This document shows positions 53,575-61,360 of a stretch of DNA of 64,000 nt, in pieces. This stretch comes from Nitrososphaerota archaeon (GTDB lineage Archaea > Thermoproteota > Nitrososphaeria > Nitrososphaerales > Gagatemarchaeaceae). Location: the NCBI GenBank assembly GCA_029785825.1, contig JAFLYY010000001.1:248001-312000 (forward strand), read 5' to 3'. Each line of letters starts with the position of its first letter. Position 1 is the first letter of the stretch. The notes beneath the pieces were generated by a model. That model was not told the origin of the DNA and ran no database searches. It saw nothing but the letters and a program-made list of their open reading frames with translations. A program made the position numbers and the translations under genes.

Positions 53575-54600
53575 CTACATCCTCGTTACGATCTTGTAGA
53601 AGTCGCCGAGCCTGGTCTCGAGCCCGTAGCGCGTCGTGTTCCCCCTCATGTACAGGAAGACAGAGAGGAGGGTGGGCCACATCTTCATCAGGCTGAACCT
53701 TCCTTCTACCTTCGCCTTGATGAATTCGTAGACCTTCGCGTAGATGGCGTAATGGTCCAGCACCGCCTTCCTGTACCCCTCCATGTCTCCGATGTGGTCG
53801 ACGAAGAGGTTGACGCATTGCATGCTCGGGATTATTCCCTCTCCCAGCATCGGGTAGACGGTCCCGATAGACTCTCCGACCCCCACAACCTTCCCGTCGA
53901 AGAACGGCTCCATGAGCTTGGGTGGCGTTACCCTCACCGGCCTCCCTATCCTCCTCACAACTTCGCAGTGGTACTTCTTCACGAACTCCTCCATCTCTCC
54001 GCGGTATCTGCCTAGGACGTCGCCTGCGCCTACATGGGCCATCCCGTCTCCTAGCGGGAAATACCACCAGTACCCCGTCAGCCCCGGATAGGGTTTGATC
54101 ACAAAGTCGTCGTAGGGGAGCTCTTTCGACTTGACCTGAATCTCGAACGACGGGACCACGAGGTCTTCCTTGACCTTCGGCAGGAGGGACCTGTGCAGCC
54201 CCGTCGCGTCGACCACCTGGTCGAACCCCTGCATGCTCCCATTTGCCCCCTTGATCTGGGCGCCCCAGTGTATCTTCTTCCCTTTCAGCATGTCCTCCGT
54301 AAGCCGGTGCTTGTCGTATGTTACAAGCCCCCTGAGGGGTATCTCTACCTCTTCGTCCCCAAGGTCGACGAGCATCTTCTTCCCCTTGTGGAGCACGTAG
54401 TCGTCGAAGTTGAACCCGGCCTCCCTCACAAGATCGGTGATGAACGGCTGGCTCGTCCCCCAGGCGCAGACAGTGTACCAGTTCTTCTCAGTCCGCATCT
54501 CGAAGGCCTCCGCGTCGACCCCCGAGGGGAGTCGGTTCAACAAGTAGGCCCCTGCTACCCCAGTTCCGACCACCGCGAGACGCGTCTTGGAAGACCCCAT
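53575..54600 (-). CDS. Geranylgeranyl reductase family flavoprotein
   Basis: A 341-residue FAD-dependent reductase. The N-terminal dinucleotide motif is V-V-G-T-G-V-A-G near residue 10, V-D-A-T-G-L-H-R lies near 112, and Y-W-W-Y-F-P-L-G-D-G-M-A-H-V-G-A-G-D covers the FAD and active-site region near 175. These enzymes saturate the isoprenoid chains of archaeal lipids or reduce menaquinone side chains. A GGTAAAAAG box on the minus strand about 24 bp before the ATG is the likely promoter. It pairs functionally with the prenyl synthase at 18.2 kb. Confidence 0.85.
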   Translation of the reverse strand: MGSSKTRLAVVGTGVAGAYLLNRLPSGVDAEAFEMRTEKNWYTVCAWGTSQPFITDLVREAGFNFDDYVLHKGKKMLVDLGDEEVEIPLRGLVTYDKHRLTEDMLKGKKIHWGAQIKGANGSMQGFDQVVDATGLHRSLLPKVKEDLVVPSFEIQVKSKELPYDDFVIKPYPGLTGYWWYFPLGDGMAHVGAGDVLGRYRGEMEEFVKKYHCEVVRRIGRPVRVTPPKLMEPFFDGKVVGVGESIGTVYPMLGEGIIPSMQCVNLFVDHIGDMEGYRKAVLDHYAIYAKVYEFIKAKVEGRFSLMKMWPTLLSVFLYMRGNTTRYGLETRLGDFYKIVTRM

Positions 54601-54703
54601 CTGTCCCCGTGCCTCGTCCTCTTTTTACCCTGTCGCCCTGACAGGCTTCGCTTCAAGCAGAGCCAAAACCTAATAAACCCAAAATATTGAATATAATAAC
54701 AGA

Positions 54704-55951
54704 ATGCCCATGCCAAAGAACCCAGAGGCCGACTCCACGACCGTGAAGCTATCCAGGGAGACCTACTCAAAGCTGGCCGCCCTCGGCAAGTACGGGGACA
54801 CCATGGACCAGATCATACAGCACCTGACCGCGCAGGCAAGAGGTCTGGAGGACGTGGTGGCGGGGAAGAGTTCGATCACCTACATCGATGGCCGAGAGGG
54901 GCGGCTTCTCTACCGCGGGTATGACATCGCGGACCTCACGGCTCACTCGAACTACGAAGAGACCACGTTCCTCCTCTGGAACGGGCGCCTCCCCACCTCG
55001 GGGGAACTGAAGTCGTTCAGGGAAGATCTCGGGGCGAAGAGGGCGATCCCACGCGAGTTGGTCTCGATCCTCACGACCCTCCCGCAGAACTGCGATACTA
55101 TGGACGCCCTGCGAGTGGGAGTGGCGGCTCTGGGGATCTTCGACGACCCCATGTATACCCAACTTGAGCGGGCTATGTCCATCGCCTCGAAGGCGGGGAC
55201 GATAGTGGCCGCGATACATAGGCACAAGCACGGCCAGGCCATAATCCCTCCGCGCGAGGACCTGTCGTTCGCTTCCAATTTCCTCTACATGGTGACAGGG
55301 AAGGTGCCTTCGGAAGGGGACGAGAATCTGATGAACGTCCTCCTGATTCTACACGCCGACCACGAGTTCAACGCTTCCACCTTCACCGCCCGCGTGATCG
55401 CCTCGACCCTCTCCGACGTCTACTCAGCGACAACGGGCGCGGTGGGAGCCCTGAAAGGGCCCCTTCATGGCGGGGCAAACGAGAAGGTCGTCGAGATGAC
55501 ACTCGAGATCGGGACCCCTGACAGGGTGGACCCCTACATCCGTGAGAAACTGGCGAACAAGGTCAAGATCAACGGCTTCGGCCACCGGGTCTACAAGACC
55601 ATGGACCCGAGGGCGAAGATCCTGAAGGACATGGCGGAGCGCTTCGTCAGGACTGAGAAGGAAAAGCAGTCGCTGGAGATCATCGAAAGGACCGAGGCGA
55701 TCCTGCTCAGGGAGAAGAACTTGCACCCCAACCTGGACCTCTATTCCGGACTCGCACTCAACCACATTGGCGTCCCTGCCTACCTGTTCACCCCGGTCTT
55801 CGCGGTCGGCCGCGCCCCAGGTTGGCTCGCCCACGTCCTCGAGCAGTTCGCCGACAACAGGATAATCAGGCCCATCGCTGACTACGCCGGTCCCCCGCTG
55901 ACCAAATACGTGCCCATCGAGAAACGTGCTTCCTCGGGTGCGGGACGTTGA
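54704..55951 (+). CDS. Citrate synthase with an N-terminal ribbon-helix-helix-like domain
   Basis: Residues about 48-415 are a complete citrate synthase condensing acetyl-CoA and oxaloacetate. The family start is L-E-D-V-V-A-G-K-S-S-I-T-Y-I-D-G, and active-site residues are in P-L-H-G-G-A-N, N-G-F-G-H-R-V-Y and N-L-D-L-Y-S-G. Residues 12-43 are extra: T-T-V-K-L-S-R-E-T-Y-S-K-L-A-A-L-G then D-T-M-D-Q-I-I-Q-H-L. This is the pattern of small archaeal ribbon-helix-helix (VapB-like) DNA-binding or antitoxin domains. An internal ATG at 54806 would not restore a normal start. AT-rich promoter sequence lies at 54671-54690. Confidence 0.9.
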   Translation: MPMPKNPEADSTTVKLSRETYSKLAALGKYGDTMDQIIQHLTAQARGLEDVVAGKSSITYIDGREGRLLYRGYDIADLTAHSNYEETTFLLWNGRLPTSGELKSFREDLGAKRAIPRELVSILTTLPQNCDTMDALRVGVAALGIFDDPMYTQLERAMSIASKAGTIVAAIHRHKHGQAIIPPREDLSFASNFLYMVTGKVPSEGDENLMNVLLILHADHEFNASTFTARVIASTLSDVYSATTGAVGALKGPLHGGANEKVVEMTLEIGTPDRVDPYIREKLANKVKINGFGHRVYKTMDPRAKILKDMAERFVRTEKEKQSLEIIERTEAILLREKNLHPNLDLYSGLALNHIGVPAYLFTPVFAVGRAPGWLAHVLEQFADNRIIRPIADYAGPPLTKYVPIEKRASSGAGR

Positions 55952-59333: not shown

Positions 59334-59705
59334 ATGGCTCTCTTCGGGGACATAGGGACGGTCTTCGCGATGGGCCTGGTCGGCATGGGGTTTACCCTCC
59401 CGGTCGTCCTACTTCCGCGCCTCTTCGGGCCGAGGCACCCCAACCCCCTGAAAAACGCCCCCTTCGAGTCCGGGCAGGTCCCCCAGGGGGCCGGGAAGAT
59501 GCACTTCATGATGCAATACTACGCCTACCTCCTGATGTTCATCGTTTTCGACGTCCTCGGGATGTTCCTCTACGCCTGGGCGGCAGCCTACAAACCGCTC
59601 TCGCTCGGTTTATCATCTGACTGGGCGGTCACGCTCTTCATCGGGATGCTTTTCATCCCCATGGGGTTCGCCCTGGTCCTGGCGGGGAGGCGCGACCTGT
59701 GGTAG
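59334..59705 (+). CDS. nuoA: NADH-quinone oxidoreductase subunit A
   Basis: NuoA/ND3, 123 residues with three membrane helices. The loop after helix 1 contains N-A-P-F-E-S-G-Q, where many NuoA proteins have Y-E-C-G; the Cys is Ser here. Helix 2 has [15 protein letters not shown] with the conserved Asp. It overlaps nuoB by 7 bp. It begins the second complex I locus, about 50 kb from nuoH-N. Confidence 0.93.
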
Positions 59706-61360
59706 TCGCCCAGCAGCAAAAGTCAGGGGCCTTCCAGGTCTTGGTCGGGAAGATAGACGACATCCTCCAGTATGCCATAGGCGATCCGATGCGCTACCTC
59801 GCAAACTGGGGGCGCCTCTACTCCCTCTGGCCCGTCCATCTAGAGACGGCATGCTGCGTCCCTCCGGAAACCGTCATCCTGGGGGACAACAAGCAGATTT
59901 CTGAATACGAACCTGGCGACATGGCCGCCTCGGCTTCAGGGCTCGTCACTGTCACCAGGACCTTCAAGCGGCAGTACAGCGGTCACATCCTCGAAGTCAC
60001 GGGGCGCGGGATGCTCCCCATCCGTCTGACCCCGGAGCACCCAGTCCTCGTCGCTTCGCGGTTGCTCAGGAGCGGCAAGGGAGAATACCTTCCTGGAACC
60101 AGTTGGAAGAAGGCGTCAGAGCTGGTCAGCGCCCCGCCGGTAAAGGTGAACGGCGAGTTCGTCTTTCCTACGATGGCACACGACTGCCTCCTGATACCGA
60201 GGATCAAAGGGCACGTCGAGCTGACCAGCATCCCTCTCAGCCCCTATGCGAATCGCCGCGGCCTTGCTGTCCTGAAAGGCCGACGGGATAGCCCGCCCTT
60301 GGACTTTCCGCTCAATGCGAGGACCGCGTGGCTCCTGGGTGTCTACGTTGCGGAAGGCTGGACCACCGAGAACCACGACGTCTTCTTCTCACTTGGGAAG
60401 CACGAGAGGAGCCTCGCCAGGCGCATCTCGCTCCTGGCGAAGTCCCTGGGGTACTCGCCACAGGTCAGGGAAAGGGAGACCGCGCTTGTCGTGAGGTTCT
60501 CATCCAGCATCCTCGCAAGGGCCCTGAGAGAGTGGTGCGGGCACCTCGCGGAGAACAAGAAAGTTCCCGACTTTATACTCTACCACAGGAGCGAACACCT
60601 GTTGCGTTCGTTCCTCAGCGGCTACCTGAAGGGAGACGGAAGCGTCACCGTCGACAACAGGGGCCCCACTTTCGACCGTGCGAGCACAACTTCGAAGATC
60701 CTTGTCCTCCAGTTGCAGCTGGCGTATGCTAGGCTTGGGCGTTTCGCAAGAATCAGACTGGAGCGCCGAGAGGGGGTCGCCCATATTGAGGGAAGGACAG
60801 TCAAGACGAGGGATGCATACTCTCTTTTCCTACTCACATCGAAAAGGAAGGTCGCCGGCTTCTGCATCAACCCAGATTACATCGTCGTCCCGATAAGGAA
60901 GATCTCGAAGCTACCCTACTCCGGTCAGGTGAGGAACCTTGAGACAAGCGACAGCACGTATCTCGTGTCGAACGCCGTCGTCCACAACTGCAGCGTCGAG
61001 GTCGGAGCGGCCGCAGGGTCGAGGTTCGACATGGAGAGGTTCGGCGCCCTCGAAGCGTTCGGCTCCCTCCGCGCCTGCGACCTGATCATAGTCATGGGTA
61101 CTGTCACCCGCAAGCTCGCCCCCAGGCTGAAGTTCATCTACGACCAGATGGCCGAGCCCAAGTGGGTCATGGCGATGGGCGCGTGCAGCATCACCGGGGG
61201 GCTCTACTTCGACTCGTACAACGTCCTGAGAGGAATCGATGACATCATCCCGGTCGATGTCTACATCCCCGGCTGCCCACCAAGGGCCGAAGCCGTGCTC
61301 CAGGGCCTCGTCCTGCTCCAAGAAAAGATCAGAAGGGCTCCATCTCTAAGCGGCCGGTGA
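59699..61360 (+). CDS. nuoB: NADH-quinone oxidoreductase subunit B precursor containing an intein
   Basis: NuoB binds cluster N2, the last iron-sulfur cluster before quinone. The 553-residue precursor has a host sequence (W-P-V-H-L-E-T-A-C52) broken by a 378-residue intein and resumed at C431[13 protein letters not shown]. After splicing the protein would be 175 residues with the normal adjacent Cys-Cys pair, plus the other N2 ligands in G-A-C-S-I-T-G-G and P-G-C-P-P-R. The GTG start overlaps nuoA. Without splicing, complex I could not form cluster N2. Confidence 0.95.
59855..60988 (+). mobile_element. Intein with LAGLIDADG homing endonuclease, inserted in NuoB
   Basis: The intein starts at Cys (C-V-P-P-E-T-V, block A), has T-P-E-H-P near residue 70 (block B with the TxxH motif), and ends V-V-H-N (block G) followed by Cys at +1. 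Those are the residues for canonical class 1 protein splicing. In the middle lie two LAGLIDADG-type motifs: L-L-G-V-Y-V-A-E-G near intein residue 160 and [10 protein letters not shown] near 252, each with an acidic catalytic residue. At 378 residues it is a full-length, possibly active homing element. The insertion point is between the two neighbouring Cys codons of NuoB. Confidence 0.95.

Follow-up and report, generated by a model that had tools for sequence, protein, structure and literature searches.

Introduction

Enzymes that carry a DNA-binding domain of their own are few. In bacteria there are proteins resembling citrate synthase that begin with an HTH domain, and in the trifunctional PutA of Escherichia coli a ribbon-helix-helix (RHH) domain is found at the N-terminus of a metabolic enzyme. 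PutA acts as an autogenous repressor within an intergenic region that a divergent gene shares (PMC5293562, PMC8249747); it binds only between its own gene and the divergent putP, and represses when its substrate is absent (PMC8249747, PMC5293562). As indicated by the title of a reference in PMC5293562, Lys9 of PutA has been studied in connection with DNA recognition, and trigger enzymes in E. coli have been counted as five (PMC8249747). Furthermore, the citrate synthase CitA of Caulobacter is reported to have a regulatory role that is independent of catalysis, namely in a cell-cycle checkpoint (PMC7083601).

Here we describe a citrate synthase (CS) gene with an N-terminal RHH-like extension, found in a stretch of 64,000 nucleotides of archaeal DNA, hereafter called the window. 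The lineage comprises uncultured soil and acid-drainage archaea. As in PutA, an RHH-type domain precedes the enzyme part of this protein (RHH-CS), and from the comparison of genes and promoters presented below we consider it likely that RHH-CS is a PutA-like trigger enzyme, which would bind its own promoter and repress the operon that CS forms with a downstream CBS-pair gene.

The citrate synthase and its N-terminal extension

The features of the locus are collected in Table 1. In the gene product, the Pfam domain Citrate_synt (PF00285) was identified with an E-value of 3e-131 and the NCBIfam model TIGR01800 with 459 bits against a cut-off of 421, both in agreement with the complete citrate synthase that had been called here in the preliminary description. 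Its full-length domain and conserved catalytic residues place the protein among the type II citrate synthases, and H220, H255 and D301, which we take to be the catalytic residues of CS, do not vary across the 24 sequences of alignment A4. Type II and archaeal citrate synthases of solved structure, i.e. those of Metallosphaera sedula (6abx), Thermus (1ixe) and Pyrococcus (1aj8), align end to end with residues 46-409 at about 45% identity, whereas none of these chains aligned to the RHH-like extension. A second CS-like gene, unfused and 38% identical, is situated elsewhere in the same genome (G000:C1:419624-420730, minus strand).

A mis-called start, with CS beginning at an internal methionine, had been put forward as an alternative, with the start at 54806. 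The methionine in question actually lies at 54803, and it is an unlikely start because three orthologs (L024, L026 and L028) have leucine in its place and conservation extends to the residues before it.

Residues 12-43 had been noted as RHH/VapB-like, a reading that now finds support in family profiles, in stand-alone relatives from archaea and in the predicted helices. The profile searches gave a divided outcome: matches to DUF7557 and VAPB_antitox were obtained, while the window's own protein reaches no curated cut-off among the RHH-type family profiles. Its match to DUF7557 (PF24434), over residues 12-41, scored 18 bits, under the Pfam gathering score of 25, and the first 52 residues alone gave an E-value of 0.0018. 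Among 16 homologous extensions, DUF7557 was found in 15 (best E-value 9e-6) and VAPB_antitox (PF02697) in six (best E-value 0.0013). When the extension profile was compared with the PDB, the top match was a weak one, to the antitoxin MazE7 (E-value 0.03). The invariant K15 aligns with Lys9 of PutA (sequence verified against PDB 2gpe), the profile comparison between the two being weak (probability 3%).

An AlphaFold2 model of the extension as a monomer has an extended N-terminus, helices at residues 18-28 and 34-46 and no strand, at a low pLDDT of about 60; the full-length model displays similar extension helices, a low-confidence linker and a confident CS domain. The ribbon of an RHH fold is formed by two chains, and since the model is a monomer it is consistent with this fold but falls short of proof. 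A Foldseek search with the isolated domain gave nothing significant, its three matches, at E-values of 8-10, being entries for plant TCP-type transcription factors.

In 400 genomes of the class, the extension profile also retrieved many small ORFs, mostly of 42-130 aa, from other Nitrososphaerales families (best E-value 7.5e-10). Since such stand-alone relatives occur in other families of the order, the extension is most simply read as a captured archaeal RHH/VapB-like domain. Its closest relatives are stand-alone proteins of Nitrososphaerales. It has a short strand-helix-helix sequence pattern in common with the small archaeal DUF7557 and VAPB_antitox proteins; these are stand-alone, whereas the window's version is fused to an enzyme and has no PIN toxin gene adjoining. 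A VapBC remnant was considered and rejected on the latter ground, the downstream gene encoding a CBS-pair protein and the upstream gene being divergent. VapB-like genes beside PIN-like ORFs, as judged by eye, were seen elsewhere in the genome.

Table 1. Positions in the window of the RHH-CS gene, its parts, its promoter boxes and its neighbors.
Feature	Position	Strand	Remarks
Divergent flavoprotein-like gene	53575..54600	-	Weak geranylgeranyl reductase-type match, below cut-off
Box 1 (TAAAC)	54674..54678	+	Overlaps TATA-like element CCTAATAAACC; from alignment of 20 promoters
Box 2 (AATAT)	54683..54687	+	9 bp after box 1; degenerate in this species
Box 3 (TATAA)	54692..54696	+	9 bp after box 2, 12 bp before ATG
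Citrate synthase (CS) with N-terminal RHH-like extension, 415 aa	54704..55951	+	PF00285 at residues 47-390, TIGR01800 at 46-408
RHH/VapB-like extension, residues 1-46	54704..54841	+	DUF7557 in 15 of 16 homologs; AlphaFold2 helices; conserved in genera g1-g5
Predicted parts of the extension			Ribbon strand ~12-17, helix A ~18-28, helix B ~34-43
CS catalytic domain, residues 47-408	54842..55927	+	H217, H220, H255 and D301 invariant in alignment A4
CBS-pair protein, 141 aa	55948..56373	+	PF00571, E-value 5e-23; overlap conserved in fused orthologs

Conservation and distribution of the fusion

The extension is kept in homologs that are 67-95% identical over the whole protein, with K15, S17, T20, L24, K29, D35 and Q44 invariant. 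Mean dN divided by mean dS gives about 0.26 for the extension, compared to about 0.15 at the start of the CS domain, and third codon positions are 2-3 times more variable than first and second positions. The extension is under purifying selection.

When citrate synthases of related genomes were surveyed, including 46 genomes of the Nitrososphaerota family of the Gagatemarchaeaceae type to which the window's organism belongs, the extension was found to be conserved in five genera of this family (g1-g5) and absent from two sister genera, namely g6, which has CS and the CBS gene without RHH, and g7, where CS has neither. One fused homolog (L048) is from genome SubAcS15-57 and one unfused homolog (L053) from AcS1-27, which have been assigned to Ca. 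Subgagatemarchaeum and Ca. Gagatemarchaeum, respectively (PMC10640624). No RHH-CS fusion was identified outside the family among 400 genomes of the class and 398 of the phylum, and none of the N-termini of the outgroup CS loci carried one. In a tree of the CS domain the fused genes formed one group with moderate support (83/52), beside a group of unfused genes (99/96). A single origin of the fusion is thus suggested with moderate support, i.e. allowed rather than strongly shown, because of the 83/52 support for the fused group.

Each of the bins G009, G030 and G017 contains a pair of fused CS genes (identity to that of the window 95% or 83%, and 81%), which represent either a strain mixture or a true duplication. 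In G016, a 97% complete genome of the same genus, the fused CS was not found, owing to either loss or an assembly gap.

Operon structure and neighboring genes

The TTG start codon of the CBS gene (55948-55950) overlaps the CS stop codon TGA (55949-55951) in the four nucleotides TTGA, and orthologs have TTGA, ATGA or GTGA at the same position. The overlap reported in the preliminary description was thereby verified, and a shared CS-CBS operon is supported as well, as implied by the description of enzyme and CBS gene as one unit. The CBS gene is separable from the fusion, since it is present in genus g6 without the RHH domain.

On the other side, an intergenic region of 103 bp is common to CS and the divergent flavoprotein-like gene, and this arrangement is kept in nearly all loci of the family. 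One variant was seen in genus g4 (L127; G033:C9:43218-46110), where the flavoprotein gene is replaced by a second CS-like gene, 38% identical, across the fused CS promoter. Further away in the window (59699-61360, plus strand), a complex I subunit (Oxidored_q6, NuoB type) is split by an intein-like insert with a LAGLIDADG homing endonuclease domain.

Repeated boxes in the promoter

Each of the 20 fused genes examined has short boxes, set at exactly 9-bp pitch between its TATA box and its start codon. Usually there are three successive boxes, of which the first overlaps the TATA box. The box unit is T-A/T-A/T-A-C, often in the form of GTATAC, GTAAAC or GTTTAC, which are palindromes or mutual complements, and these three forms are also those of box 2 in the orthologs. 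Repeated short boxes near the promoter, a common but not strictly defining trait of RHH proteins, are thus present in the fused genes.

Direct repeats at a lag of 9 were scored in the 30 nt before the start codon. The mean best 7-nt match was 5.65, versus 3.24 in shuffled sequences (z about 10, a value reached by none of 1000 shuffles), where z-scores overstate independence because the 20 promoter sequences are related. None of the other lags from 4 to 15 was raised in these promoters, no lag-9 repeat was found upstream of five unfused CS genes of the family, and as a control only 6% of 48 ORF starts in the window reach a score of 5 at this lag. A three-box model reached 13.0 of 15 at pitch 9, compared to 9.5-10.7 when the pitch was varied and 9.2 when applied to unfused genes; this score is partly circular because the pattern was derived from these same promoters, the pitch and the contrast between fused and unfused genes being less so. 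The contrast with the unfused sisters, together with the differing box sequences, is safer evidence than the z-scores.

In the window and its closest relatives, the same positions are occupied by AT-rich variants of the boxes. Taken alone, the window promoter scores 5 of 7 at lag 9, and lags 5, 7 and 12 score equally. Because they are AT-rich and other lags do as well, the boxes of the window are unconvincing on their own; the window promoter by itself was consequently rejected as evidence for an operator, for which only the comparison with orthologs works.

Apparent joint exchange of the extension and the promoter

Between the loci L016 and L045-L047 on the one hand and L007 and L009 on the other, the CS domain is 91-92% identical, whereas the RHH core is only 53% identical. 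Correspondingly, nucleotide identity rises sharply at the junction between RHH and CS, from 50-69% to 91-94%, and the promoter boxes of the L016-type loci are of the GTAAACCAGGTTTACC type seen in other clades. This pattern suggests that the RHH domain and the putative operator were replaced jointly in the L016 lineage. Recombination is favored over fast divergence because the change in similarity is abrupt, at a single position, and the replaced part most resembles other clades, and the exchange counts as one event because the three L016-type loci are 100% identical. When strand residues were compared with box types, TTVKLS was found with ATATTG-like boxes, and TTVKVS with GTATAC (L012 and L018) and with TATTC/TAATG (L017).

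RHH folds dimerize and type II citrate synthases are oligomers, and the extension could accordingly be an RHH-type dimerization or oligomerization module, or a degenerate captured antitoxin, that stabilizes or assembles CS without binding DNA. The weak profile scores would fit such a role, and DNA binding by RHH-CS is itself a prediction. We nevertheless regard this alternative as unlikely, given that the strand residues K15 and S17 are invariant, that the box array is tied to the presence of the extension, and that RHH domain and promoter appear to have been swapped together in the L016 lineage. The preliminary description had left the choice between DNA binding and a dimerization module; the former gains from the fusion-linked array and the RHH-promoter exchange, and the latter, as the sole function, loses. 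The promoter evidence favors predicted DNA binding at the gene's own promoter.

Similar sites elsewhere in the genomes

Genome-wide occurrence of the boxes was assessed by pattern search only. With at most one mismatch allowed, the double box GTWWACCNRGTWWACC has a single occurrence in the complete genome G005 (1.5 Mb), and this lies at the CS promoter. Of 18 fused genomes, 10 had a match to a three-box pattern at the CS promoter, and in G005, G008, G009 and G026 this was the sole match in the genome, while other three-box matches were mostly at chance level, similar to a reversed-pattern control. A conserved regulon elsewhere was rejected, as searches with the window-type 17-mer (at most two mismatches) and with the GTWWAC pattern returned essentially only the CS promoter.

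A perfect three-box array was found in G035, a genome of genus g6 with unfused CS, directly before a stand-alone RHH-like gene (L138), as expected for the arrangement of an autoregulated RHH protein. In G012, another stand-alone RHH-like protein (L188, TTVKVSKETASKLAALQK...) has TATACTGGTATACCGATATAG upstream, with similar boxes at 8-bp pitch. Furthermore, the HxlR-type genes L136, L139 and L163 (in G063, G032 and G067, respectively; family assigned by eye) are immediately preceded by a GTATACTTTGTATA or GTATACTTAGTATA-like element that resembles the CS boxes, and these elements are probably their own operators.

The boxes before CS might then be read by another regulator, either an HxlR-type winged helix protein or a stand-alone RHH protein, with the RHH domain of CS doing something else. 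The GTATAC-containing sites at the promoters of HxlR-type genes in three genomes of the family speak in favor of this, as does the same array before the stand-alone gene in G035. We find it quite improbable, since the array is absent from the unfused CS promoters of the family, since a separate regulator would have its own gene and a site elsewhere whereas the CS promoter holds the only three-box match in the four genomes named above, and since domain and promoter were apparently exchanged as a cassette. Even less credible, in our view, is that RHH-CS activates its own promoter, or chiefly controls the divergent flavoprotein gene or distant genes. The intergenic region is common to the divergent gene in nearly all loci, and AmrZ is among the RHH proteins that both activate and repress (PMC3325190), but the boxes extend from the CS TATA element to the start codon, a position expected to block initiation, and other box matches in the genomes are few.

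Discussion

Repression of its own operon by RHH-CS is the reading we prefer. A DNA-binding-type domain on a metabolic enzyme, the trait of PutA-type trigger enzymes, is present as a single ORF in five genera, and as the promoter of the same gene has repeated boxes to match this domain, the enzyme probably regulates its own synthesis. A stand-alone RHH domain of the VapB/DUF7557 type would have been fused once to a type II CS, in the ancestor of the five genera, with the fused enzyme presumably remaining a citrate synthase. Paired RHH domains would then bind the roughly three short near-palindromic boxes, which cover the stretch from the TATA box up to the start codon. Judging by the layout of archaeal promoters, the array is positioned where a repressor would block transcription, and from this position we infer that RHH-CS may block the promoter and thereby repress the CS-CBS operon; DNA binding and repression are both inferred steps. 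A metabolic switch is also conceivable, for which the substrates of CS are candidate signals, as is an adenine nucleotide bound by the CBS protein. In a fuller scheme, up to three CS dimers would sit next to one another on the 9-bp boxes across the TATA element, their release would be gated by oxaloacetate or acetyl-CoA, the co-transcribed CBS protein would contribute an energy-charge input, and the cassette of RHH domain and operator could pass between lineages by recombination; in its entirety this scheme is offered as tentative and rather doubtful.

If the main proposal is true, entry into the citric acid cycle would be controlled at the transcriptional level by CS itself. The natural swap of RHH domain and promoter, along with the paired fused and unfused sister genera, makes up a ready test system that needs no culturing. 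Literature searches, with most subscription journals outside their coverage, did not bring up a description of an RHH-citrate synthase. The trigger enzyme is a kind already known, while the enzyme, the host and the operator are new within the reach of these searches.

Of the described systems, Caulobacter CitA would be similar in being a citrate synthase with a non-catalytic regulatory role, and differs in that no fused DNA-binding domain is described for it in the passages of PMC7083601 consulted. PutA has an enzyme unrelated to that of RHH-CS, which is furthermore archaeal, has a different box sequence and pitch, and occurs as a fusion confined to one family. Lastly, DNA binding and the ligand switch are known for PutA, whereas for RHH-CS DNA binding is a prediction and a ligand switch hypothetical.
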